Assembly (NCBI GenBank): GCA_028876655.1
Contig: JAGWRA010000244.1
Span: 1-44,478 of the forward strand
Direction: 5' to 3'
Length of the DNA: 44,478 bases
Origin: Acidobacteriota bacterium
Lineage (GTDB): Bacteria > Acidobacteriota > Vicinamibacteria > Vicinamibacterales > CAVVIG01
A model generated the notes under the pieces. That model did not search any database. It was not told the DNA's origin and saw only the letters and a list, made by a program, of their open reading frames with translations. A program made the translations under genes and the position numbers. Position 1 is the stretch's first letter. Every line of letters begins with the position of its first letter. Shown here piece by piece: positions 4,127-26,979 of this stretch.

Positions 4127-5497
4127 TCAGAGGTGGGCCAGCGGATCGACGTCGTATTCCGCCGGATCGACCGGGGCGACGACGGCGGACGGCGACTCGC
4201 CGCCCTCGGCGGCTTCCCACAGCGCGCACTCACGGGGCGCCGCCGGCGTGCCGTCGGGCGCGAAGAGGATCCGGACGCGCGGGCGCCGCGGGTCGGCCGC
4301 CCGCACCTGAATCACGATGCCGATCTCGCCGGTGTCGAGCCGGACGAGCGTCCCCGGGGGGTAGATGCCCATCAACTGGGTGAAGCGACGCACCAGCCGC
4401 TGGTCGAACTGCTGGCCGTCGTTGCGCTGCAGGACGGCCAGGATCCGATCGGTCGGAAACGCCTCCTGGTACTTCCGCTGCGATCGCATCGCGTCGTAGA
4501 CGTCGGCGATGCTGCACAGCATCGTCCCGAGGTTCAGCGCCGAGCGGCCGATGCCGTCGGGATACCCGGTGCCGTCGAGCCGCAGGTGGTGCTCGAAGGC
4601 CACGACCGGGGCGAGGGCGGGCATTTCGGGGGTCTCGCGCAGGATCTCGGCGCCGTCGACGACGTGGCGCTTCATCACCCCGAATTCGGCCGGCGTCAGC
4701 CGATCCGGCTTGTTCAGGATGTCGGTCGGCGTCCGCACCTTTCCGATGTCGTGCATGAGGGCCGCGAGGCCGAACTCCCGCAGCAGCGGGCCGTCGATGC
4801 CCAGGCTGCGCGCCTGGGCCATGGTGAGGATGGAGACGTTCACCATGTGCGTGAACGTGTAGTCGTCGTACCGCTTGAGTGCCGTGAGGGCGACGAGTGC
4901 CGAACGGTTGCGGGCGACGGCGCGCGCGAGGCCGTCGATGGCCGCCCGGACGGCGGCCGGATCCGGGGCCTGCCCGCCGGCGGCCTGCCGCCAGACGGCG
5001 CCCGCCACCGAGACCGCCTCGCCATAGAGCTGGCGGAGGGTATCGGCGCCGGTGGCGTCCGCGGCCTGACCGGGACGATCGACCGCGACCCGGCCGACGC
5101 GGATGTGGGGGAAGGCGAGCCGCCCGGTCTCGTCACCCGACGTGGCGGCGAGGCCCGCCAGCGCGTCCACGAATCGCGACAGCTCCTCGTCGCTGACGCC
5201 GCGATCGAACGTCATCCGCTCGACGCCGGCCGCCCGGAGCCGCTTCATCAGGTCACCCAGCGTCTCGGACGCGCGGCTCACCGGGGCGCCCTGGACGACG
5301 AGCTCGTCGCCGACCAGCCCGACGGTCACCTGCGGCTGACGCGCCAGCAGGCTCGACAGGCTCGCGCCGAAGGCGGCGGCGTTGCGGCCGATGATCGGAT
5401 GGCCGGTCGTATAGAGCTGCGAGGCCCGCAGCGCAGCGGCCAGGCGGCGCGGCAGGTCCTCGGCGGCGGTTCCGGCGGGGCGGCTGTCTGGGGGCAT
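4127..5497 (-). CDS. HD-GYP domain protein (putative c-di-GMP phosphodiesterase), last gene of HEAT/HD-GYP operon
   Basis: The 456-residue protein has an N-terminal module (about residues 15-115; motifs LY at 28-29, HP at 33-34, GDELVVQG at 63-70, GVS at 100-102) shared with the three upstream genes. Next comes a helical linker, then an HD-GYP domain. The metal-binding HD dyad is H249-D250 in ALMHDIGKV, the second histidine pair is H303-H304, and GTGYPDG is present. HD-GYP enzymes hydrolyse cyclic di-GMP. The usual HHE is HHL here, so activity is likely but not certain. A PilZ-like beta segment (TLVRLDTGEIGIVIQV) follows, and the protein ends DVDPLAHL. No membrane segment is visible, so it is cytoplasmic. 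The start region lies in an ACGTNNN heptamer array with no Shine-Dalgarno. Confidence 0.9.
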   Translation of the reverse strand: MPPDSRPAGTAAEDLPRRLAAALRASQLYTTGHPIIGRNAAAFGASLSSLLARQPQVTVGLVGDELVVQGAPVSRASETLGDLMKRLRAAGVERMTFDRGVSDEELSRFVDALAGLAATSGDETGRLAFPHIRVGRVAVDRPGQAADATGADTLRQLYGEAVSVAGAVWRQAAGGQAPDPAAVRAAIDGLARAVARNRSALVALTALKRYDDYTFTHMVNVSILTMAQARSLGIDGPLLREFGLAALMHDIGKVRTPTDILNKPDRLTPAEFGVMKRHVVDGAEILRETPEMPALAPVVAFEHHLRLDGTGYPDGIGRSALNLGTMLCSIADVYDAMRSQRKYQEAFPTDRILAVLQRNDGQQFDQRLVRRFTQLMGIYPPGTLVRLDTGEIGIVIQVRAADPRRPRVRILFAPDGTPAAPRECALWEAAEGGESPSAVVAPVDPAEYDVDPLAHL

Positions 5498-5502
5498 GGG
5501 TC

Positions 5503-5547
5503 ACGTCCAACGTCCGACGTCTTCCTCTTTCTACGTTCTACGTTACG
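5503..5547 (-). repeat. ACGTNNN / CTACGTT heptamer tandem array
   Basis: On the plus strand the units ACGTCCA, ACGTCCG, ACGTCTT, CCTCTTT, CTACGTT and CTACGTT follow each other with a strict 7-bp period. The array fills the 45-bp gap between two operon genes and even supplies the TAA stop of the upstream HEAT-repeat gene. It is the same unit class as the longer array at 43035-43215. Confidence 0.75.
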
Positions 5548-7762
5548 AGTGTCGTCGTCTGTCCAACGCCCCGCGCGCCGCCGCGCGGACGCCGCGTGAG
5601 CCGCCAGCGGCGGCCTCGTCCAACGCGCGCCGGGCCTCGGGGCCGTCGATCCGGGCGAGCGCGTCGGCGGCCGCGGCCCGCAGCAGCCTGGTGCGGCGCG
5701 GCGCCCACCATTCTCCACGCTGGAGCGCCTCGCCGAGCGCCGGCACCCCGGCCGGGTCGCCGAGCGTGCCGAGCAGCTCGATCCCGCGCAGCGTCACGGC
5801 GCTCAGGGCGCGGTGATCCAGGGTGCGCACCAGATAGGCGACGAGCGGCGCCGGCTGTTCCTGCCGCAGCGATGCGAGGGCACCCATGATGCGGTCGCGC
5901 ACGCGCGGATCGCCGGTGGCCACCGCCCGGCCGACGAGCGCGCAGGCATCGTCGGTCCCGATCGCCAGGATGGCCCGCACGGCCTCCCGCTGGACGGCCG
6001 GCTCCTCGTCGCCGAGCAACGCCTCGAGATCCGCCAGCGCCTCGCTCCCCCCGAAGGCGCGCAGCAGGTAGGCGGCCGTCCGCCGCACCGAGGCGCTCGC
6101 CGAGTTCTTCAGCCGTTCCACCGCCTGGCGGCCGGTCCGGCCGTAGGCGAGGAGCAGCTCCGTCAGCCGCTGCTGCGCGCGACCGCGATCCTCTGTCGAC
6201 AGCGCGTCGGCCAGCGGGGGAATCGCGCGATCGCCCAGAGAGAGGTAGAGCGCCTTGACCTGCTCGAACGTCGCATCGTCCATCGTCTGCAGGTGGGCCA
6301 CCGTGTTGCTCATCATGGCGCCCCCGACCAGCCGGTCGAGGGCGTCGCTCGCGGCCGCCCGGTGCGTGTCCCGCCCCGCGGGTCCGGCCTCGGCCGTCAG
6401 GGCCCCGACCAGCTGGCCGGCCGCGGCGGCGTCGCCGACGAGCAGCAGTTCCTCGACCGAGCCGACCACCGAGGCGGCGATTCCTGCCCAGCGCCCGGGA
6501 TCGGCTTCGATGGCGATCAGATCGAGCAACAGCCGCTGGTCGAGCGTGCGGACCGCCGAGGGCGCCACCGTCCGCAGCCATCCCGCGATCTGCGCGGGAG
6601 CGTCGTCGCGGATCTGGTCGATCTCCACGGCCTGCGCGTGGGCGCCCGACAGTTCGCGGCTGTACGCGTCGCCGACGAACGGCGAGTCCGAGTAGGAACT
6701 GAGCAGCTGAGAGACGTCGTTCCACAGGTCCTCGAACCCCTCCTCGTCGGCGAGCGGCGAGGTGGCGAGTTCGTCGCGGACGAGGCGGAGCAGGCGCCGC
6801 CGGCGATCGTCGTCGGGGACCAGCGACCCGAACGCACGCACCAGCCGCGCACTCGCCGACCGGTCGGTGACGACCGCCCGGGCGACGAAGCGGCTGACGG
6901 CTTCGTCGGACGCCAGCTGCAGGATGCCGGCCCCGTCTGGTGGTCCGTCGTCCTCCGCCGGGCCGTCATACAGCCCGAGCACCAGGTCGGGCGGCAGCCC
7001 GGCGAGCACCTTGCTGGCGCCGTCGGCCAGGGCGGCCGACCGGTCGGCGCCGTCGTGCGGCACGCCGGCGATCCCGGCGAGCAGGCGACCGAGCGCCGCT
7101 GTCCGGGCGGCCGGGCCGTCACCGGCCGCCCGGCGGTCGATCTGCGCCGCCAGCTCGGCGAGGCGCGCGCCGGCGTCCGGGCCGCTCAGCAGGGCGCCGA
7201 GCGCGCCGGCATCGATCGGGATGCCGCCGCCGAGACAGGCCTCGATGATCGCCGCCCAGCCGGCCGGCTCGCCCCCGATCCGCTCCCGCAGGACGTCGGC
7301 GTAGTCGATCTCGACGAGGTCGAGGCCCTGGCCGCCGGCGGTGAGCCAGGCGCGGGCGAAGCCGCCTTCGGCGCGCACGGCCTCGGGTGACTGGCCGAGC
7401 AGGGCGAGGAACGGCTGCCAGGAGGGCGCCGCCATGTCGGGCTGGATCGTCAGGCCGCCGATGCCGTGCGCGTGCAGCAGGGCAGCGAACTCGCCGACGG
7501 CGGCGTCGCTGCGCTCGAGGCCCCGGCCGTCCACGCGCAGGTCGTCTGGCAGGACGGTCAGCCGGAGCGGGCCGTCGGCGACCGTGCGGCGGGTCAGATC
7601 GCCGAGGCGGCCGAGCGCGGTGCCGATGGCGGGGTGGCCCCCCGGGTAGAGCGCGACGGCGCGGGCGGCGGCGCGGCAGGCGCGCGCGAAGTCGATCAGG
7701 CGGTCGGCCTCGGCGGGTGCCAGGAGCGGCGCGGCGACGGACGGGTCGTTCAGATCGGGCAT
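5543..7762 (-). CDS. HEAT-repeat protein with shared N-terminal module (third gene of HEAT/HD-GYP operon)
   Basis: The 739-residue protein starts with the same N-terminal module as its operon partners (LY at 38-39, HP at 43-44, DDLRVDG at 73-79). A long alpha-helical middle follows. From about residue 500 there are HEAT/PBS-lyase-type repeats, for example SVRRTAAYLLRAFGGSEAL, AVQREAVRAILAIGTDDAC and RVRDRIMGALASL. Such solenoids are protein-protein scaffolds, and no catalytic motif is visible. No signal peptide or membrane helix is seen. It begins 22 nt after the upstream HD-GYP stop. Its TAA stop lies inside a heptamer repeat, so its exact C-terminus may have been set by repeat insertion. 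A scaffold or partner role for the HD-GYP proteins is inferred from linkage only. Confidence 0.85.
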   Translation of the reverse strand: MPDLNDPSVAAPLLAPAEADRLIDFARACRAAARAVALYPGGHPAIGTALGRLGDLTRRTVADGPLRLTVLPDDLRVDGRGLERSDAAVGEFAALLHAHGIGGLTIQPDMAAPSWQPFLALLGQSPEAVRAEGGFARAWLTAGGQGLDLVEIDYADVLRERIGGEPAGWAAIIEACLGGGIPIDAGALGALLSGPDAGARLAELAAQIDRRAAGDGPAARTAALGRLLAGIAGVPHDGADRSAALADGASKVLAGLPPDLVLGLYDGPAEDDGPPDGAGILQLASDEAVSRFVARAVVTDRSASARLVRAFGSLVPDDDRRRRLLRLVRDELATSPLADEEGFEDLWNDVSQLLSSYSDSPFVGDAYSRELSGAHAQAVEIDQIRDDAPAQIAGWLRTVAPSAVRTLDQRLLLDLIAIEADPGRWAGIAASVVGSVEELLLVGDAAAAGQLVGALTAEAGPAGRDTHRAAASDALDRLVGGAMMSNTVAHLQTMDDATFEQVKALYLSLGDRAIPPLADALSTEDRGRAQQRLTELLLAYGRTGRQAVERLKNSASASVRRTAAYLLRAFGGSEALADLEALLGDEEPAVQREAVRAILAIGTDDACALVGRAVATGDPRVRDRIMGALASLRQEQPAPLVAYLVRTLDHRALSAVTLRGIELLGTLGDPAGVPALGEALQRGEWWAPRRTRLLRAAAADALARIDGPEARRALDEAAAGGSRGVRAAARGALDRRRHS

Positions 7763-7784
7763 CGGACTGCGCGAGGAGCCGGTC

Positions 7785-9137
7785 TCACAGGAACGACAGG
7801 GGATCCAGATCGACCGATTCGGGATCGACGGCTTCGACCACGGCGCGGGGATGTTCGCCGCCCGGGCCGCGCTCCCAGGTGTTGGCGAGCACCGGCTCTT
7901 CCAGCGGCTCGCCCTTCGCGTCCAGCACGACCTTCACCTGCGGGCGGAAGGGGTCGCCGGGATGCTCGGCCGTCACGACGGCGACCTCGTCCGTGCTGAG
8001 CCGGACCAGGTTGCCGACCGGGAAGAGGCCGACGAGGTTCACGAAGCGCTTCAGCAGCGTCTGGTGGAACGCGGGATTGCCCTGTTCGTGCATGATCGCG
8101 CGGATGCGCGCGGTCGGCAGCCCCTCGCGGTAGGGCCGGTTGCTGCGCAGCGCGTCGAAGACGTCGGCGATGCTGACGATGGTCGTGCAGAGGTTCAGCT
8201 GGCGCGCGCCGATGTGCTCGGGATAGCCGCTCAGGTCCTGCTTCAGGTGGTGCTCGAACGCGACGATCGGCGCGAGAGCCGGCATCTCCGGCGTCCGGCG
8301 CAGGATGTGCGCGCCATCGACGACGTGCCGCTTCATGATCTTGAACTCCTCGCCGGTCAGCCGGTCGGGCTTGTTCAGGATCTCGAGCGGCGTGTTCACC
8401 TTCCCGATGTCGTGCATCAGCGCCGCGAAGCCGAACTCGCGCAGCAGCGGCCCCTCGAGGTTCAGCGCCCGGGCCTGCGCCATGGCGAGGGCCGACACGT
8501 TCACCATGTGCGTGAACGTGTAGTTGTCGTAGCGCTTCAGCGCGGTGAGCGCCATCAGCGACGTCCGGTCCTCGTTGACCAGGCGTGCGAGGCTCTCGAT
8601 GATCTTGCGGGCCGACCGCGGGTCGGGCTGTTCGCCGGCCTTCGCCTGGTTCCAGAGCGACTCGGCGGTCTCGACGGCCGTGCGGTACACGCGCCGGGCG
8701 GCCGCGATGCCGACCTGGCTCTCCTCGTCCTCGTCGATGGCGAGCCGGCCGACCGTGATGTGGCGCGCCTCGCGCGCCAGCCGGTCGGCGACCGGCTGGC
8801 GCGAGGTCCGGTCGGCGAGGATCCCGACGAAGGCGCGGAACTCGTCGGCCGAGACCCCGCGCGCGAAGGTGATCTTCTCGATGTCGCGGTCGCGCAGCCC
8901 CCGCACGAAGCCCGCCAGTGAGGCCGACGACTTCGCGAGCCGCACGTCGTCGACCACGACCTCGTCGCCGATGAAGCCGATCGTGACCGTGGGGGCCGCC
9001 TGCAGCGCCTCGGTGCAGGCGGCGCCCAGCGCCGTCACGCCCCGCTGCACCAGCGGGTGCGCCGGCGAGTAGAGCTCGACGGCGCGCAACGCCGCCGCCA
9101 GCCTCCGGACCATCTCGTCAGCGCGCCTGGGCTCCAT
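7785..9137 (-). CDS. HD-GYP domain protein, second gene of HEAT/HD-GYP operon
   Basis: The 450-residue protein is a paralogue of the other HD-GYP protein in the operon, with the same architecture. The N-terminal module (LY at 22-23, HP at 27-28, GDEVVVDD from 57, GVS at 94-96) is followed by an HD-GYP domain with H242-D243 in ALMHDIGKV and H296-H297. The GYP motif is altered: the segment reads HHLKQDLSGYPEH, so the Glu of HHE and the first Gly of GxGYP are both replaced. Metal ligands of the HD core remain, so it may bind or slowly hydrolyse c-di-GMP, or act as a sensor. It starts 3 nt after the upstream HEAT-repeat stop, with GGAGAA seven bases ahead, and ends DLDPLSFL like its sister. Confidence 0.9.
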   Translation of the reverse strand: MEPRRADEMVRRLAAALRAVELYSPAHPLVQRGVTALGAACTEALQAAPTVTIGFIGDEVVVDDVRLAKSSASLAGFVRGLRDRDIEKITFARGVSADEFRAFVGILADRTSRQPVADRLAREARHITVGRLAIDEDEESQVGIAAARRVYRTAVETAESLWNQAKAGEQPDPRSARKIIESLARLVNEDRTSLMALTALKRYDNYTFTHMVNVSALAMAQARALNLEGPLLREFGFAALMHDIGKVNTPLEILNKPDRLTGEEFKIMKRHVVDGAHILRRTPEMPALAPIVAFEHHLKQDLSGYPEHIGARQLNLCTTIVSIADVFDALRSNRPYREGLPTARIRAIMHEQGNPAFHQTLLKRFVNLVGLFPVGNLVRLSTDEVAVVTAEHPGDPFRPQVKVVLDAKGEPLEEPVLANTWERGPGGEHPRAVVEAVDPESVDLDPLSFL

Positions 9138-9140
9138 ACG

Positions 9141-11369
9141 TCAGTTCTCCGGACCGGCGCCCGCCGCCCGGGCGGCCCGCCGCAGCGCGCGATGGCCCGA
9201 TCCGGCGGCCTGGCCGAGCGCCTGGCGCGCGGCGTCGGTGTCGATCCGCCGGAGCGTGTCGACCGCCGTCCGCGCCAGCGTGCGCGTCTTCTTCAGGGCG
9301 AACAGGCTGCGCGCGCGCATCACCGTCTCGACGGCCGGCACCGCCTGATCGCCACCGACGGCGCCGAGCGCGCCGAGCGTCTGCAGCACGATGTCGTGAT
9401 CGGCGCCGAGCGGCTGGCTCTCGTGCAGGATCCGGACGAGCATCGGCACGATCCGGGGATCCGGATCCGTCAGCAGCGCGCCGATCACCGCCTGGCGGAC
9501 CTCGCCCGTGGCCGCCCGCAGCACCGTGTGGAGCGCGCGGGCCGCCGCCGGGTCGTCGATCGCGGCGAGGGCGGCGACCGCCGCGCGGGCGACCTTCGGG
9601 TGCCCGCCGCGGACCAGGCCCTGGAGCAGGGGGACGCCGGCCGGCGCGGCGATCCGCCCGAGCAGGTCGGCCGCCACGACCTGCACCACCCAGCGCGGAT
9701 CGCCGGCGAGCGGCGCCAGACGCGAGACGGCATCGGCGCCGAATCCGGCCGTGAGATCGGCCGCGCGCGTCCAGGTCAGCGTGCGGGCCTCGACGGCGAG
9801 CGCGTCGCGCAGGGCCTCGACCATCGCCGGGCCGATCGCCTGCGCCAGCGCCGTCACCGCCGTCATCTGCCCGGGCGCCAGATCGCCGAGCATCGCCACC
9901 ATCTCGCGCAGCGCCAGCGTGTCGACGATGTCGTCGAGCGCGCGGCGGGCCGCCGCACGCAGCGGGCCGCCGGTGGCCGTGCGTGCCGCCTGCGCCAGCG
10001 CCCCGGTCACCCGCGCCGCCTCGGCATAGTCGCCCGACAGCAGGAGGTCCTCCGCGAGCGCCGCCAGATCCCGGGCCACGTCCGCCCCCTGCGGCGTGTC
10101 ACCTTCGAGGTGGAGGAGATCGATGAGGAGCGTCACCGACAGCGTGCGGACGTTGTCGCGATCGAGCGTCTCGAGCCAGCCGGGCAGCTCGGGCGGCAGG
10201 TCCCGCTCGGCCATGTCCCGGGCACGGGCCGTCACGCCGTCGAGCGTCGTCCGGTACGCCTCGGAGACGTACGGGGTCTCGTCGTAGGAGAGCAGCAGCT
10301 CTTCCATCGACGCCCAGAGCACCTGGAACTGTCCCGTCCGCCCGAAGTCGCTCTCGCTCAGCAGCGATCGGGTGAGGGTCATGACCCGTCGCCGGCGATC
10401 GACGTCGGGGGCGATCGTGTTGAAGACCTCGGCGAGGCGCTCCGACGCCCGCCCCTCCGTGGCCAGGGCGGTGGCCAGCAGCCGGGCGACCTGCATGTCG
10501 TCGAAGGCCGAGGCCAGGCGCCCGACGACCGGCACGACCTCCCCGGCCTCCTCCGTCGAGCGCAACATCTGGACGACGACGTGCGGATCGAGCCGGCTGG
10601 CGGCCTCGCCGAGGTTCCGCATCACCTCGGGCATCCGGTCGGCCGCCATCACCGACACGATCGAGCTGAGGTGGCGGAAGGCGGCGAGCACCGTCGCCGC
10701 CTGCGTGGTGATCATGGGCGACCCGTCGGCCGCGTGGCCCGGCGCCATGACCGCCGCGGCCAGGTCGACGATCTCGAGGGGATCGCCGGCGATCGCCAGC
10801 AGGCGCTGCTGCGCCTGCTCGTCGAACACCTTGCGTCCCTCGACGATGGCCCGCGCGATGGCCTGCCAGACGTCGTCCCGCCGGCGCGGTGCCGCGCCGG
10901 ATTCTTCCCGGTCTTCGAGGACCTTCTGGTAGTCGATCTGCTCGATCGCGATCGAGGGATGGCCGGTGGCCGCCCAGAGGGCGGTGGGGCCGCCGCCGCT
11001 CCGCCGTGCGTCGGCATCGAGCGCGAGCAGGGTCAGCAGGGCGCGCAGCGCCTGGGGCGGCACCTCGCCGGCAAAGGCGATCTGCAGGATGTCGCGATCG
11101 TGCAGGAGGGCGGCGGCCTCGCTGAGCTGCTGCTCGCGGCCGGGGACCGGCAGCCCTTCGACGAGGAGCGAGTCGGGCGTGGCGCTGACGGCGAAGAACG
11201 CCCCGGCCGTTGCCTGCGAGACCGCGTCGGCCAGCCGATCCAGCGAGGACGCCACCGCAGGATGCTCGGGCGGATACAGCGTCCAGTTGCGCGCGGCCGC
11301 CACCAGGGCGCGGGCGAAGGCGGCGACACCGCGGGCCAGTTCGGGGGACAGCTGGGGCGCTTGCGTCAT
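9141..11369 (-). CDS. HEAT-repeat protein with shared N-terminal module (first gene of HEAT/HD-GYP operon)
   Basis: The 742-residue protein is a paralogue of the 739-residue HEAT protein downstream. The N-terminal module has LY at 31-32, HP at 36-37 and DSLLVEG at 66-72. After a helical middle, C-terminal HEAT repeats include RWVVQVVAADLLGRIA, HPKVARAAVAALAAIDD and EVRQAVIGALLTDPD. No enzymatic motif is visible. I chose the ATG at 11369 because the shared module begins directly after it and the upstream frame is low-complexity antisense to the divergent permease. It heads the operon; the 141-bp gap to the divergent nucleoside permease must hold both promoters. Its function is unknown; a scaffold or substrate-sensing role is inferred from repeats and neighbours. 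Confidence 0.85.
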   Translation of the reverse strand: MTQAPQLSPELARGVAAFARALVAAARNWTLYPPEHPAVASSLDRLADAVSQATAGAFFAVSATPDSLLVEGLPVPGREQQLSEAAALLHDRDILQIAFAGEVPPQALRALLTLLALDADARRSGGGPTALWAATGHPSIAIEQIDYQKVLEDREESGAAPRRRDDVWQAIARAIVEGRKVFDEQAQQRLLAIAGDPLEIVDLAAAVMAPGHAADGSPMITTQAATVLAAFRHLSSIVSVMAADRMPEVMRNLGEAASRLDPHVVVQMLRSTEEAGEVVPVVGRLASAFDDMQVARLLATALATEGRASERLAEVFNTIAPDVDRRRRVMTLTRSLLSESDFGRTGQFQVLWASMEELLLSYDETPYVSEAYRTTLDGVTARARDMAERDLPPELPGWLETLDRDNVRTLSVTLLIDLLHLEGDTPQGADVARDLAALAEDLLLSGDYAEAARVTGALAQAARTATGGPLRAAARRALDDIVDTLALREMVAMLGDLAPGQMTAVTALAQAIGPAMVEALRDALAVEARTLTWTRAADLTAGFGADAVSRLAPLAGDPRWVVQVVAADLLGRIAAPAGVPLLQGLVRGGHPKVARAAVAALAAIDDPAAARALHTVLRAATGEVRQAVIGALLTDPDPRIVPMLVRILHESQPLGADHDIVLQTLGALGAVGGDQAVPAVETVMRARSLFALKKTRTLARTAVDTLRRIDTDAARQALGQAAGSGHRALRRAARAAGAGPEN

Positions 11370-11510
11370 GACTGCAACGTGAGCCGTTCGAGGCTGTATA
11401 TCCTTTATCGGCCGATCAAGTCCAGCCGCCGCCGGGTATACTCGGTCGGCGCCCCGAATCCGTGCCGGCCGCGGGCCTGGCGCCGGCCCGGGGACCCGGG
11501 GGAGGGTCGG

Positions 11511-12911
11511 ATGGACGGAGAACTGACGATCGGCGAAGGGGAGGCGGCAGCCGCCCCGGCGGCGGGCTGGCGCCGCCTGCGGCCCGGCCGCCTCAGCCGC
11601 CGCGATCTGATCCTGCTGGGCGCGGCATTCGCCGTGGCCCTCGCGGCGTTCCTCGCCGCCCGCGTGGATGGCTCGCTGCGCCTGCAGTCGGTCATCGGCG
11701 TCGTGCTCATCCTGACGCTGGCCTACGCCGGCTCGGCCGACCGGCAGGCGATCCACTGGCCGACGGTCGGCTGGGGCCTGGGGCTGCAGTTCGCCATCGC
11801 GGTGGTCGTCCTCAAGACGTCCGTCGGACAGCGGATCTTCGAGCGGATCGGCGATCTCATCGGCAGCCTGCTGGGCTTTGCCGACGTCGGCGCCGCCTTC
11901 GTCTTCGGCCCGCTCGGCGACAAGTCGGCGTGGCCGCGGATCATGACCGGCGCGCTCGGGGCCGCCGGCGCGCAGTACAGCACCATCTTCGCCTTCCAGG
12001 TGCTGCCGACCATCATCTTCTTTGCCGCCCTGTCGGCGGTCCTCTACCATCTCGGCGTGCTGCCGGCCATCGTCCGGGCGTTCGCCTGGGGGATGCGCCG
12101 CGTGATGCGCGCGAGCGGGGCCGAGTCGCTGAACGTGGCCGCCAGCGTGTTCATGGGCATGACCGAGGCCCCGCTGACGATCCGCCCGTACCTGCCCGAC
12201 CTGACGCAGTCCGAACTGATGACCGTGATGACCTCGGGCATGGCCCACGTCTCGGGCGGGATGATGGGCGCCTACATCCTGTACGGCATCAGCGCGCGCC
12301 ATCTGGTGACGGCCGTTGTGATGACCGCGCCCGGGACGATCCTCATCGCGAAGATGCTCGTCCCCGAGACCGAGCAGCCGCGCACGATGGGAACGGTGCC
12401 GATCGGGCGGGAGCAGACCGACGTCAACGTCATCGATGCCGCCGGGCGCGGCACGCTGGAGGGCCTGAGCCTGGCGCTGAACGTCGGCGCGATCCTCATC
12501 GCGTTCCTGGCCCTCATCGCGATGGCCAACGCGGTGCTCGGCCTGGCGGGCCTGAGCCTGCAGGAGATCTTCGGCTGGGTCTTCTCGCCGATCGCCTGGA
12601 GCCTCGGCGTCCCCTGGCACGAAGCGGCGACGGTCGGCAACCTGCTCGGCACGCGCATGACGCTGAACGAACTGGTGGCGTACGCCCAGCTCGGTTCGCT
12701 GAAGGGAGGACTCGACGCCCGGACCTTCACGCTGGCGACCTTCGCGCTCTGCGGGTTCGCCAACTTCGGATCGATCGGCATCGAGATTGGCGGCATCGGG
12801 TCGCTCGCGCCCAACCGGCGGCACGACCTGGCGCGGCTCGGCCTGATCGCCATGATGGCCGGGACGCTGGCGAACTTCCTCACGGCCGCCATCGCCGGGA
12901 TCCTGCTCTGA
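11511..12911 (+). CDS. CNT-family nucleoside permease (NupC-like)
   Basis: The 466-residue integral membrane protein belongs to the concentrative nucleoside transporters, which import nucleosides with H+ or Na+. After a charged N-terminus of about 35 residues there are many hydrophobic helices. Diagnostic motifs are present: [13 protein letters not shown] (the G-x-TEAPL substrate-site motif), [20 protein letters not shown], and near the C-terminus [19 protein letters not shown]. The start ATG at 11511 follows GGGGGAGGGTCGG, which contains a good ribosome site; TATACT at 11437-11442 is a possible -10. The stop overlaps the start of the purine nucleoside phosphorylase gene by 1 nt, so uptake and phosphorolysis are genetically coupled. 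Confidence 0.95.
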
Positions 12912-13771
12912 TGGCGTCGAGCGACCTCTTCGATCGCGTGGCCGAGGCGGCGGCCGTCGTCCGCGCCCGGATCCCGGCCTTCCCGGAGGTCGCCGTGGTG
13001 CTGGGGTCGGGGCTTGGCGGGTTCGCCGAACGGTTGACCGGCGGGGTCACGATCCCCTATGCGGAGATTCCGCACTGGCCGCCCGTGTCGGTGGCCGGCC
13101 ACGACGGCCGGCTCGTCGTGGGGGCGGCCGGCGGCACGCGCGTCGCGCTGCTGGCGGGGCGGACGCACCTGTACGAGGGGGCGCAGCCCGAGGAGGTGAC
13201 CTTCGGCGTGCGCGTGCTGGCGACGGCCGGCGTGAAGACGCTGATCCTCACCAACGCCGCCGGCGGCATCAACGCCAGCTATCCCCAGGGGGCGCTGATG
13301 GTCATCGACGATCATCTGAACCTGACCGGCGCCAACCCCCTGGTGGGGCCGCACGACGAGCGGTTCGGCGCGCGCTTTCCCGATATGACCGAGGCCTGGT
13401 CGCGCCGCCTGCGGCGGCTGGCGACCGCGGCGGGCCGCGACATCGGGCTCCTGCTGACGCGGGGCGTGTACGCGGCCGTGCTGGGACCCAGCTACGAGAC
13501 GCCCGCCGAGATCCGCGCGCTGCGGACGCTCGGCGCCGACGCGGTGGGGATGTCCACCGTGCCGGAGCTCCTCGTGGCCCGGCAGATGGGCCTCGAGGTC
13601 CTCGGCCTCTCCTGCATCACCAACGCCGCCGCCGGCGTACGCGCCCAGCCGCTCAGTCACGACGAGGTCGTGGCGAGCGCCGGCCGGACCGCCGACCGGT
13701 TCGCCCGCCTGCTGGAGCGGATCCTGGCGCGCCTGGGCGACGAGACGGAGCCCGCGGCCGCCGAGCCGTGA
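12911..13771 (+). CDS. Purine nucleoside phosphorylase (NP-II / PunA type)
   Basis: This 286-residue cytoplasmic enzyme splits purine (deoxy)nucleosides with phosphate into base and (deoxy)ribose-1-phosphate. Family motifs are the phosphate-binding LGSGLGGF near the N-terminus, [28 protein letters not shown] and [22 protein letters not shown] has the Asn that favours 6-oxopurines (inosine, guanosine); methylthioadenosine phosphorylases carry Asp there. The start ATG overlaps the permease stop (TGATG). The gene is followed by mtnA, which uses methylthioribose-1-phosphate, so a dual role in methylthioadenosine salvage is conceivable but not supported by the Asn. Confidence 0.95.
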
Positions 13772-13785
13772 CCCGCAGCCGTCAT

Positions 13786-13817
13786 CCCCCAATCCCCAAT
13801 CCCCAATCCCCAACCCC
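13786..13817 (+). repeat. AATCCCC heptamer tandem repeat upstream of mtnA
   Basis: CCCCC is followed by three exact AATCCCC units (13791-13811) and a degenerate AACCCC. The complementary strand is G-rich (GGGGATT), with four G-runs that could form a G-quadruplex. It fills most of the 65-bp gap between the phosphorylase gene and mtnA. The same unit recurs at 16992-17088. Confidence 0.8.
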
Positions 13818-13823
13818 GCCTGT

Positions 13824-13829
13824 TATCAT
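13824..13829 (+). promoter_or_regulatory. -10-like TATCAT exactly 7 bp before the mtnA ATG
   Basis: TATCAT ends 7 bases before the ATG at 13837 and there is no Shine-Dalgarno between them, the layout expected for a leaderless transcript. No convincing -35 is visible because the upstream bases are the heptamer repeat. Confidence 0.4.
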
Positions 13830-13836
13830 TGGACCC

Positions 13837-14898
13837 ATGCTGCCGACGATTGCCCGCACGGGCGAGACCATCGTGATGATCGACCAGCGGAAACTGCCCG
13901 GCGTGGAGCTCTACGTCAGCTGCCACACCGTGGCCGAGGTCGCCCGCGCCATCAAGACGATGGTGATCCGCGGGGCGCCGGCCATCGGCGTGGCGGCCGC
14001 CTACGGTCTGGCGCTCGGCGTGCGGAAGAGCCGGGTCAGCGGGACGCAGAAGCTGGCCGCCGAGTTCTACAAGATCTGCGAACTGATGGCCGCCACGCGC
14101 CCGACCGCGGTCAACCTCTTCTGGGCGATCGACCGCATGAAGCAGACCTTCGCCGCCGGCGCCGCCGCCGGCGAGTCGGTCGACCAGATCAAGGATCGGA
14201 TGGACGCCGAGGCCGGGCGGATCCACGACGAGGACGTCGAGAGCTGCCGCGCGATCGGCCGGCACGGCGGCGCGCTCGTGCCCGACGGCGCCCGCATCCT
14301 GACGCACTGCAACGCCGGCGCCCTCGCGACGGCCGGGTACGGGACGGCGCTCGGCGTCATCCGCGGGGCCGTGGAGCAGGGCAAACAGGTGACCGTGCTC
14401 GCCGACGAGACGCGCCCGTTCCTGCAGGGGGCGCGGCTGACCGCCTGGGAACTCGTGCGCGACGGCATCGACACGACGGTCATCACCGACAACATGGCCG
14501 GGGCGCTGATGCGCCAGGGGCTCGTCGACTTCGTCGTCGTCGGTGCCGACCGGATTGCCGCCAACGGCGACGTCGCCAACAAGATCGGCACCTACACCGT
14601 GGCCGTGCTGGCCCGCGAGCACGGGATCCCGTTCTACGTCGCCGCGCCGGCGTCCACGATCGACCTGGCGACGCCGGATGGTTCGCGGATCCCGATCGAG
14701 GAGCGCAACGCCCGCGAGGTCACGCACGTCGGGCCCACGCGCCTGGCACCGGAGGGGGCGCACGTCCGCAACCCGGCCTTCGACGTCACGCCGAACGCCC
14801 TGGTCGCCGGCATCATCACCGAGCGGGGCGTCTTCCGCGCGCCGTACGTCGAGACGCTCCCATCGGCCGTGCATGGTGATGTGTCAGTCAGCCGCTGA
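13837..14898 (+). CDS. mtnA: S-methyl-5-thioribose-1-phosphate isomerase
   Basis: The 353-residue enzyme isomerises methylthioribose-1-phosphate to methylthioribulose-1-phosphate in the methionine salvage pathway. It shows the eIF2B-alpha-like fold signature: [15 protein letters not shown] near residues 43-57, catalytic Cys158 in [12 protein letters not shown] and catalytic Asp238 in [20 protein letters not shown], plus [19 protein letters not shown]. Length and motifs fit MtnA rather than true eIF2B regulators. The ATG at 13837 was chosen because conserved sequence starts there and a -10-like TATCAT lies 7 bp upstream, suggesting leaderless translation. Other salvage genes (mtnB, C, D) are not in this window. 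Confidence 0.95.
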
Positions 14899-24778: not shown

Positions 24779-26196
24779 CCACCAGCAGAACGCGCTCACT
24801 CGGCCTGTTCCTCCTCGCCGCATTCGTCCTCACCCTCGGCGTCGCCCCGGCGGCCTCCGCCCAGCAGACCGGCAGCGAACTCGACACCCGCGACCCGCGC
24901 GTCGTCAAGCTGCTGCAGCAGATTTCCCCGGACCGGCTCAGCACCATCGTCGAGAAGCTCGCCAGCTTCCACACGCGCAACCTGATGTCGTCGACCACCT
25001 CGTCGACCGAGGGGATCGGCGCCGCGCGCCAGTGGATCTTCGATCAGTTCAAGAGCTACAGCCCCCGGCTGCAGGTCAGCTTCGACACCTACGAGGTCGC
25101 CAAGCAGGGGCCGCGGATTGCGCGGGACGTCGAGCTGCGCAACGTGATGGCCATCCTGCCCGGCCGGACCAGCCGCCGCATCTACGTGAGCGGCCACTAC
25201 GACACGGTGGCGCGCATTCCCGAGAAGAGCGGCAGCCAGGGGGCGGCCGATGCGCACGGCGGCGTGTTCGACTGGGCGCACGGCGACAACTATGCGCCGG
25301 GCGCCAACGACGATGGCAGCGGCACCGCCCTGACGATGGAGCTGGCCCGGGTGTTCTCGCAGAGCGGCATCCAGTTCAACGACACGCTGGTGTTCATCGC
25401 CTTCGCCGGCGAGGAAGAAGGGCTCGTCGGCTCGTGGCTCCACGCCCACAAGGCGTTCGAGGAGAAGCTGGTCATCGACGCCGACCTGAACAACGACATC
25501 GTCGGCGATCCATCGACGGGCACCGGGGTCGTCGACTCGAGCAGCGTCCGCGTCTTCTCGGTCGGCCCGGCCGACTCGCCGTCGCGCGAGCTGGCCCGCT
25601 ACATCTGGCAGATGGCCGGGATCTACGTCCCCTGGCACAAGGTGACGCTCATCGCCCGGCAGGACCGGTTCGGGCGTGGCGGCGATCACAGCTCGTTCAA
25701 CCAGTTCGGCTACACCGCCGTCCGGTTCACGACGTCGGGCGAGGCGTACGACCGGCAGCACTCGATCTACGACACGGCCGATCACGTGTCCGGGACCTAC
25801 CTGGCCGACAACGCACGGGTGAACGCGGCCGCGGCGGCCAGTCTGGCGCTGGCGCCGCCGGCGCCCGTCGTGGTCGACGCCCACGGGCGGGCGACGATCG
25901 GCCGCGGGCCGACCGGCTACGACGCCGCGCTCCACTGGCAGGCGTCGCCGGGCGCCGTCGGTTACCGGATTGTCTGGCGGAGCGGCTGGGCGCTGAACTG
26001 GCAGCACGAGCTGCGGGTGGGGAACGTGACCGAGGCAATCCTGCCGTCGACGTCGATCGACAATTACATCTTCGGCGTGGCGGCCATCGGTCCCGACGGG
26101 CACGAGAGCCTCGTGTCGGCCTACGTGAACCCGGCGCGGCCGATGACCCCGATCAAGACGGTGGGCGGCGCTAGCCAGCCCGGCGGCCGGCCCTGA
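24775..26196 (+). CDS. Secreted M28-family zinc aminopeptidase
   Basis: The 473-residue protein has a signal peptide (LGLFLLAAFVLTLGVAPAASA, likely cut before QQTGSE) and an M28 peptidase domain. Zinc ligands are seen at H141 and D143 (SGHYDTV), D179-D180 (GANDDGSG), the catalytic Glu pair E213-E214 in AGEEEG, and D241 in LNNDIVG, with a late His in the segment DTADH. These define two-zinc exopeptidases of the aminopeptidase Y/S type. A C-terminal fibronectin-III-like domain (about residues 365-455, YRIVWRSGWALNWQH) follows the catalytic part. The start overlaps the GGCT-like gene stop. The 3' end overlaps the convergent PilZ gene by 26 bp. Confidence 0.93.
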   Translation: MTTSRTRSLGLFLLAAFVLTLGVAPAASAQQTGSELDTRDPRVVKLLQQISPDRLSTIVEKLASFHTRNLMSSTTSSTEGIGAARQWIFDQFKSYSPRLQVSFDTYEVAKQGPRIARDVELRNVMAILPGRTSRRIYVSGHYDTVARIPEKSGSQGAADAHGGVFDWAHGDNYAPGANDDGSGTALTMELARVFSQSGIQFNDTLVFIAFAGEEEGLVGSWLHAHKAFEEKLVIDADLNNDIVGDPSTGTGVVDSSSVRVFSVGPADSPSRELARYIWQMAGIYVPWHKVTLIARQDRFGRGGDHSSFNQFGYTAVRFTTSGEAYDRQHSIYDTADHVSGTYLADNARVNAAAAASLALAPPAPVVVDAHGRATIGRGPTGYDAALHWQASPGAVGYRIVWRSGWALNWQHELRVGNVTEAILPSTSIDNYIFGVAAIGPDGHESLVSAYVNPARPMTPIKTVGGASQPGGRP

Positions 26197-26515
26197 TCGC
26201 TTCGATGAAGTCGGTGATGACCGTGGTGACGCGGGGATCGGGCTCCACGAACTCGATCCCCGCGCGATAGACCACCGCCTCGTGCTCGACGTCGCTGATC
26301 CGGCAATGGGCCACCCGGCCCTTCACCACGATCGACCGCTCGCCCAGCGTCAGCCGGAACTCGTGCAGGGAATCGAGCTGGAGAGGGAAGGCGGCTTCGA
26401 TCTGCGCCCCGCCGCGGCTGATCTCCCTGATCGCCATCGGCTGGAACACCATGACCTCGCCCCGGAGCTCCCCCAGGATTTCGAGCCGTTCGGTATCGCG
26501 CTTGTCGAGGGACAT
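26171..26515 (-). CDS. PilZ-domain protein
   Basis: The 114-residue single-domain protein resembles PilZ, the c-di-GMP effector fold. An RxxxR motif is present in KRDTER near the N-terminus. The second motif (D/N)xSxxG appears as EISRGG, with Glu replacing Asp/Asn, followed by AQIEAAFPLQ. The end IEFVEPDPRVTTVITDFI is typical of PilZ proteins. Binding is therefore plausible but altered. The start ATG at 26515 is 12 bp after a TATAGT element (26533-26528), so the leader is almost absent. It is downstream of the degenerate receiver gene in the same orientation, with a hairpin repeat between. Confidence 0.8.
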   Translation of the reverse strand: MSLDKRDTERLEILGELRGEVMVFQPMAIREISRGGAQIEAAFPLQLDSLHEFRLTLGERSIVVKGRVAHCRISDVEHEAVVYRAGIEFVEPDPRVTTVITDFIEAIRAGRRAG

Positions 26516-26527
26516 GCGTCGGCTGGC

Positions 26528-26533
26528 ACTATA
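26528..26533 (-). promoter_or_regulatory. -10-like TATAGT upstream of the PilZ gene
   Basis: On the minus strand TGCTATAGT lies 12 bp before the PilZ ATG, so transcription would start about 5 nt before the start codon. No Shine-Dalgarno is visible. The -35 side overlaps the hairpin GTGGGGCTCCGCCCCAC at 26579-26563. Confidence 0.4.
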
Positions 26534-26562
26534 GCACGCCGCCCGAGGGACCATCGGAGGGT

Positions 26563-26579
26563 GTGGGGCGGAGCCCCAC
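26563..26579. repeat. GTGGGGC-gga-GCCCCAC hairpin, variant of the dispersed hairpin family
   Basis: A perfect 7-bp stem with a 3-nt loop lies between the receiver gene stop (26587) and the PilZ promoter. It shares the GTGGGG/CCCCAC core and the flanking CAATG with copies at 14921 and 33517. In this position it may act as a terminator for the receiver gene. Confidence 0.6.
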
Positions 26580-26586
26580 GTAAGAA

Positions 26587-26979
26587 TCAATGCATGCGGA
26601 GGGCGGGTAGCAGCGTGGTCTCGGGGAGCGCCGCCCCGTCGAACTCGGTGTCGAGATCCTGTCCCTCGAACTCCGTCGTGTAGGTGAGCACCGGGATGTC
26701 GCGCGTCTCGGGATCGAGCTTCAGCATGGACAGCACGTGGAAGCCGCCGGGCTCCTCGATGCGCATGCAGAGGATGACCAGGTTCGGCTGGACCCGCTTG
26801 ACCTGCGTATAGGCGTGCTCGCCCGACTCGACGAACACGACGTCGTAGTGGCCGACGTCCAGCGCGGCTTCGAGCAGATCGAGGATGGCCGTGTCGCCGT
26901 TGATGACCACGACCTTCTGGGGAGCGCGGCCTGCCGGCCGGCTGTCGTGCCCGCGCGGTGTCGTTGGAGTGGTCATCAT
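26587..26979 (-). CDS. Degenerate receiver-domain (CheY-like) protein without phospho-acceptor
   Basis: The 130-residue protein keeps the receiver fold pattern (KVVVINGDTAILDLLEAAL; DVVFVESGEHAYTQVKR; NLVILCMRIEEPGGFHVLSM; IPVLTYTTEFEG). The aspartate normally phosphorylated at the end of beta-3 is replaced by Cys (LVILCM), and the acidic pair at the end of beta-1 reads NGD. The Thr/Ser switch position is retained in TYTT, but no conserved Lys is evident. It is best called a pseudo-receiver that may signal by protein contact. The start has tandem ATGs, preceded by AAGGGGGC. Divergent from the histidine kinase 428 bp away. Confidence 0.78.
   Translation of the reverse strand: MMTTPTTPRGHDSRPAGRAPQKVVVINGDTAILDLLEAALDVGHYDVVFVESGEHAYTQVKRVQPNLVILCMRIEEPGGFHVLSMLKLDPETRDIPVLTYTTEFEGQDLDTEFDGAALPETTLLPALRMH

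Follow-up and report, generated by a model that had tools for sequence, protein, structure and literature searches.

The phylum Acidobacteriota is a large, poorly studied group of soil and water bacteria. The stretch of DNA analysed here (hereafter, the window) comprises 44,478 nucleotides of contig JAGWRA010000244.1 (assembly GCA_028876655.1), from an acidobacterium assigned to Vicinamibacterales. It carries four adjacent genes on the minus strand, which we call HEATa, HDa, HEATb and HDb in the order in which they run from position 11369 to position 4127, with spacers of 3, 22 and 45 bp (Table 1). Pfam recognises HEAT_2 repeats in HEATa (E = 2e-11, 44.3 bits) and HEATb (E = 5e-15, 56.1 bits; cut-off 27.7 bits) and an HD_5/HD domain in HDa (E = 5e-19, 69 bits) and HDb (E = 1e-21, 77.6 bits; cut-off 27.2 bits). 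Coordinates and Pfam matches agree with a previous, sequence-only reading of this DNA, which had described HEAT, HD-GYP, HEAT and HD-GYP genes running in one direction with the same spacers. Over their full length, HEATa and HEATb are 33% identical and HDa and HDb are 51% identical, which argues for duplication of a two-gene unit. None of the proteins of the locus has a transmembrane-like segment, and no riboswitch for cyclic di-GMP (c-di-GMP) or other known RNA was found within the window at gathering scores.

A module common to both protein classes

All four proteins begin with a similar N-terminal module, for which we use the label NMOD. Even single sequences reveal the relationship, with the N-termini of HEATa and HDa matching in BLASTP at E = 1e-6. 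Profiles built from 27 to 69 relatives each linked the N-modules of the HEAT and HD-GYP proteins in all four combinations (P from 9e-13 to 4e-11 over about 105 columns), whereas other regions of the HEAT proteins compared in the same way with the HD N-terminus gave P values of 0.03 to 0.3. These control regions rule out a chance resemblance, and by sequence comparison the N-modules of all four proteins are homologous. AlphaFold2 models of single chains (pLDDT 88.9 for HDb and 90.0 for HEATb) predict one order of elements in both classes, alpha-alpha-beta-beta-(beta)-alpha-beta-alpha...beta. In HDb the predicted elements are helices 8-28 and 34-51, strands 56-62 and 65-68, helix 76-89, strand 94-98, helix 103-116 and strand 132-135; their counterparts in HEATb are helices 16-38 and 44-60, strands 66-70 and 75-77, helix 87-98, strand 101-106, helix 112-122 and strand 147-151. 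The first two helices are linked by a turn with the motif LYxxxHP, conserved in HEAT and HD-GYP proteins alike, and the following beta hairpin includes a strand with the motif PDxLxVxG/GDEVVVxD.

The sequence-only reading had postulated one N-terminal module in all four proteins, common to an enzyme-like and a scaffold-like partner. The BLASTP and profile comparisons and the two motifs bear this out, and the modelled modules of HDb and HEATb display a single secondary-structure order rather than different folds. The length of roughly 100 residues given there has to be extended to about 135 residues because of an additional strand at the end (132-135 in HDb, 147-151 in HEATb).

NMOD does not correspond to a known domain of Pfam or the Protein Data Bank (PDB), as no consistent match was obtained. 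No Pfam family matched more than one of the 58 NMOD members scanned. DUF3391, retrieved for HDa, was rejected, its match being below the cut-off (E = 0.14) and covering only part of that family. A PDB sequence search with NMOD alignment A3 gave no match at E < 0.05, and the sole match of alignment A8 was a short one, of 36 residues, to a designed protein. In the genome from which the window comes, a whole-genome search found NMOD confined to HEATa, HDa, HEATb and HDb.

Downstream of NMOD, the HEATb model is alpha-helical and has HEAT/ARM matches in the PDB; the HEAT protein looks like a scaffold. It has a C-terminal HEAT solenoid in common with HEAT/armadillo scaffolds such as PR65 of PP2A and bacterial HEAT proteins of the NblB/CpcE type. 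Kinship of HEATa and HEATb with these proteins is confined to the repeats (the NblB match reaches 27-28 bits against a cut-off of 300).

Table 1. Genes of the HEAT/HD-GYP locus and cores of their N-modules (window positions)
Feature	Position	Strand	Description or analyses
HEATa	9141..11369	-	742 aa: N-module (~10-150), helical middle, HEAT repeats C-terminally
HDa	7785..9137	-	450 aa: N-module (~4-135), linker helices, HD-GYP domain 201-369 (FEHHLKQDLSGYP), C-terminal beta domain
HEATb	5543..7762	-	739 aa: N-module (~18-155), helical middle, HEAT repeats C-terminally
HDb	4127..5497	-	456 aa: N-module (~8-140), linker helices 146-207, HD-GYP domain 208-376 (HDIGK, FEHHLRLDGTGYP), C-terminal beta domain 377-456
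N-module of HEATa (core, alignment A3)	10995..11369	-	Profile comparison, alignment, genome search
N-module of HDa (core)	8793..9137	-	Profile comparison, alignment, genome search
N-module of HEATb (core)	7367..7762	-	Profile comparison, alignment, genome search, AlphaFold2 model
N-module of HDb (core)	5138..5497	-	Profile comparison, alignment, genome search, AlphaFold2 model

Inheritance and distribution of the gene pair

A scan of species genomes yielded 76 loci, nearly all from genomes named Acidobacteria and matching Vicinamibacterales. HEATb lies directly upstream of HDb in essentially every Vicinamibacterales-like locus with enough upstream sequence, and the commonest arrangement is a 4-bp overlap of the two genes, implying translational coupling. 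The complete series HEATa-HDa-HEATb-HDb is present in about 25 loci, HEATb-HDb alone in about 28 and HEATa-HDa alone in two (L108 and L113). Wherever flanks are available, loci of all three types occupy one syntenic frame, with divergent MtnA, Cdd-like, PNP and NupC genes on one side and a protease gene, an ECF sigma factor and Rng-RodA-MrdA on the other. The HEAT tree and the HD-GYP tree are mirror images: the a and b units form sister clades inside the phylum with support of 100/100, and the remaining pairs are grouped alike in both trees. The mirrored trees and the single syntenic site therefore indicate one block duplication of the pair on the Vicinamibacterales stem, after which whole pairs were lost in either direction. 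A tandem duplication had been proposed from the sequence alone. The four-gene arrangement described there likewise stands; as a functional unit it gives way to the two-gene pair, because pairs stand alone in many other genomes, which rules out a role exclusive to the four genes together. Evolutionary distances of partners are correlated (r = 0.87-0.92), and those of HEATa and HEATb equally so (0.92), which disqualifies co-divergence as proof of interaction.

Occurrence was further assessed within Acidobacteriota, using a sample of 149 genomes, of which 44 to 47 contain NMOD. Across the phylum, 30 of the 32 intact loci encoding an HD-GYP protein with NMOD have another NMOD-bearing gene directly upstream, the exceptions being L225, where the contig ends within the upstream HEAT gene, and L222; at L160 the HD-GYP protein is truncated. 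Thus, in the acidobacterial part of the neighbourhood comparison that the sequence-only reading had called for, these HD-GYP genes almost never lack a linked partner. HEAT repeats are recognisable in most NMOD partners, and in seven genomes (G053, G066, G104, G107, G126, G143 and G175) two pairs are located on separate contigs.

The usual description of an HD-GYP enzyme is of a single chain with a sensor domain of its own. Here the enzyme is inherited in a strict pair with an NMOD-HEAT protein, across many acidobacterial families and, repeatedly, twice in one genome. Full-text searches of open-licence papers for paired HEAT/HD-GYP proteins, or for HD-GYP proteins in Acidobacteria, returned no such pair, in line with the initial impression that no named system has this arrangement, although absence from this literature is not proof. 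As far as could be checked, the conserved HEAT/HD-GYP pair with its common unnamed domain is real and undescribed.

NMOD-HEAT proteins also occur in other settings. In one family, f36 (L145, L152, L172 and L173), the NMOD-HEAT gene lies between an upstream standalone HD-domain gene and a downstream histidine kinase gene; the HD domain and kinase of L173 and the kinase of L145 were identified by Pfam, whereas L152 and L172 have similar neighbours on visual inspection. This arrangement is possibly a parallel NMOD-HEAT system. Elsewhere, the neighbour of NMOD-HEAT is a Ser/Thr kinase at L166, a STAS protein at L165 and a hybrid kinase at L142. Two tandem NMODs are found in a single HEAT-type chain at L148 and L171, as would be expected if NMOD works in pairs; no NMOD-HD-GYP partner was found at either locus (L171 is truncated at the end of its contig). 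Contigs labelled as Myxococcales (L112), Cyanobacteria (L050), Acidimicrobiia (L064) and Bifidobacterium breve (L094) also contain the operon in an acidobacterial form. These genomes look mislabelled or contaminated, and L112, L050 and L094 are probably mis-binned contigs, given the close match of their genes to Acidobacteriota sets. Plasmid spread was ruled out, as there was no plasmid match, and viral contigs gave four matches only, all restricted to the HD domain.

Active-site residues of the HD-GYP proteins

Residue numbers and metal ligands were taken from PmGH, a GAF-HD-GYP phosphodiesterase of Persephonella marina (PMC4159591), and 102 HDa/HDb proteins were compared. PmGH is also the best PDB sequence match (1e-38), followed by the 3'3'-cGAMP phosphodiesterase V-cGAP3, and a Foldseek search retrieved as fold matches PmGH (PDB 4MCW/4MDZ/4ME4), the HDGYP-like protein Bd1817 of Bdellovibrio (3TM8), PA4781 of Pseudomonas aeruginosa (4R8Z) and DvhD, a c-di-GMP receptor of Desulfovibrio vulgaris (9RBZ/9RC0). 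H189, H221, D222, H250, H276, H277 and D305, as well as K225 and D308, are kept in all 102 proteins, and D183 in 101 of them. The only PmGH metal ligand changed is E185, which is replaced by Tyr in 102 of 102. Since the class with Tyr or Phe at this position has been predicted to be binuclear, binding two metals (PMC4159591), HDa and HDb fall, judging from their sequences, in the predicted two-metal subfamily. Both the HDIGK and GYP motifs are present. Relative to the full HHExxDGxGYP motif, HHE is changed to HHL in nearly all proteins, and 32 of the 33 HDa have Leu for Gly in DGxGYP (DL for DG). K317 contacts guanine in PmGH; its position is occupied by Arg in every HDa and by Gln in every HDb. 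In distant HD-GYP partners the GYP loop is variable and the HD ligands are mostly kept. Three of them (L162, L164 and L174) have lost both K225 and the GYP motif and are possibly inactive or receptor-like.

Apart from these residues, HDa and HDb differ from PmGH in having NMOD in place of GAF, an extra C-terminal beta domain and a paired HEAT gene. PA4781 has the HD-GYP fold with a bimetallic site, as predicted here; it has no NMOD match and is not known to be paired with a HEAT protein. The HD-GYP-like fold of Bd1817 is matched at the profile level from the linker helices onward and aligned by Foldseek over 325 columns, whereas its N-terminus shows no sequence match to NMOD. DvhD is encoded in an operon with a partner that it controls (PMC13090378), and it differs from the soluble HDa and HDb, with their metal ligands and HEAT partner, by its periplasmic dCache domain, PAS domain and receptor role. 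Receptors of the DvhD type are distinguished by loss of catalytic residues with ligand binding retained; HDa and HDb keep the metal ligands together with D183 and K225.

A putative HEAT/HD-GYP complex and its alternatives

As the best explanation, we propose that the locus encodes two paralogous copies of a cytosolic two-protein signalling module, composed of a HEAT protein and an HD-GYP phosphodiesterase. The two proteins, each starting with NMOD, would be co-translated as a pair, and NMOD would most likely mediate pairwise association, as a homo- or heterodimer. The HEAT solenoid might then hold, target or gate the HD-GYP enzyme, which would hydrolyse c-di-GMP or a related cyclic dinucleotide through a two-metal centre. 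We give such a complex, with this activity, a probability of about 0.5. Joining through NMOD is suggested by the pairing of the genes, by the domain that both proteins have in common and by the proteins with tandem NMODs; we infer it, as we do the substrate, the direction of regulation and the output. If NMOD does join the two proteins, this would represent a new way to gate a cyclic-dinucleotide phosphodiesterase. More tentatively, NMOD could be an undescribed pairing domain defining a new HEAT/HD-GYP complex module in Acidobacteriota, with parallel versions of NMOD-HEAT beside other signalling enzymes, namely a standalone HD protein and a histidine kinase in one family and a Ser/Thr kinase or STAS protein elsewhere.

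Several observations weigh against a joint complex of this kind. The gene upstream of the HD-GYP gene at L222 has neither NMOD nor a Pfam HEAT match, and the partners at L154, L155, L159 and L163 have NMOD and no Pfam HEAT match. NMOD-HEAT is found without NMOD-HD-GYP at at least 14 loci, and therefore the module needs no such partner. The distance correlations mostly reflect the species tree, and the structure models cover single chains only. As to the enzyme, the Leu in DGxGYP of HDa, HHL for HHE and the losses of GYP or K225 in some distant members would also fit other substrates or a role as receptor. Co-occurrence with GGDEF domains is uninformative as a substrate test, these being near-universal in the phylum (144 of the 149 sampled genomes, with six in the genome of the window).

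NMOD might instead be a ligand-binding sensor acting separately in both proteins; the HEAT protein would then respond to the same cue as a parallel effector, and the two would form no stable complex. We consider this unlikely, even though NMOD occupies the N-terminus, the usual sensor site in HD-GYP proteins (GAF in PmGH, PMC4159591; PAS/dCache in DvhD, PMC13090378), LYxxxHP is conserved in both protein classes and NMOD-HEAT is also found on its own next to kinases or STAS proteins. The near-strict gene pairing and the overlapping genes point to stoichiometric partners, and the tandem NMODs of L148 and L171 also argue against separate sensors.

It is rather unlikely that the substrate is another phosphoester, such as 3'3'-cGAMP, pGpG or another nucleotide, and not c-di-GMP. 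V-cGAP3 as the second-best sequence match, the replacement of the K317 guanine contact (without exception Gln in HDb, Arg in HDa), and the conserved divergent genes for nucleoside transport and salvage (NupC, PNP, Cdd-like and MtnA) are consistent with such a substrate. However, the match to PmGH is far stronger than any other, the K317A change hardly affects PmGH (PMC4159591), and the salvage genes lie on the opposite strand and may reflect vertical synteny only.

It is improbable that the HD-GYP protein serves chiefly to bind c-di-GMP as a switch controlling the HEAT protein and not to lower c-di-GMP as an enzyme: DvhD is such a receptor (PMC13090378) as well as a fold match, and the GYP loop is altered here and degenerate in some distant pairs, three of which have lost K225, but the retained metal ligands and D183/K225/D308 are essentially invariant in the 102 HDa/HDb proteins, an enzyme signature, and alanine changes of GYP residues cost PmGH little activity (PMC4159591).

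Returning to the window, the genes for a NupC-like nucleoside transporter, PNP (12911-13768) and MtnA (13837-14895) occupy positions 11500-14895 on the plus strand, divergent from the operon. About 50 loci conserve this neighbourhood, which also includes a Cdd-like gene. Any connection of dinucleotide breakdown with nucleoside salvage would be speculative. Further away, the minus strand at positions 26174-26910 has a gene for a PilZ-domain protein (E = 2e-7), a possible c-di-GMP effector, which adjoins an open reading frame whose receiver domain scores just below its cut-off.

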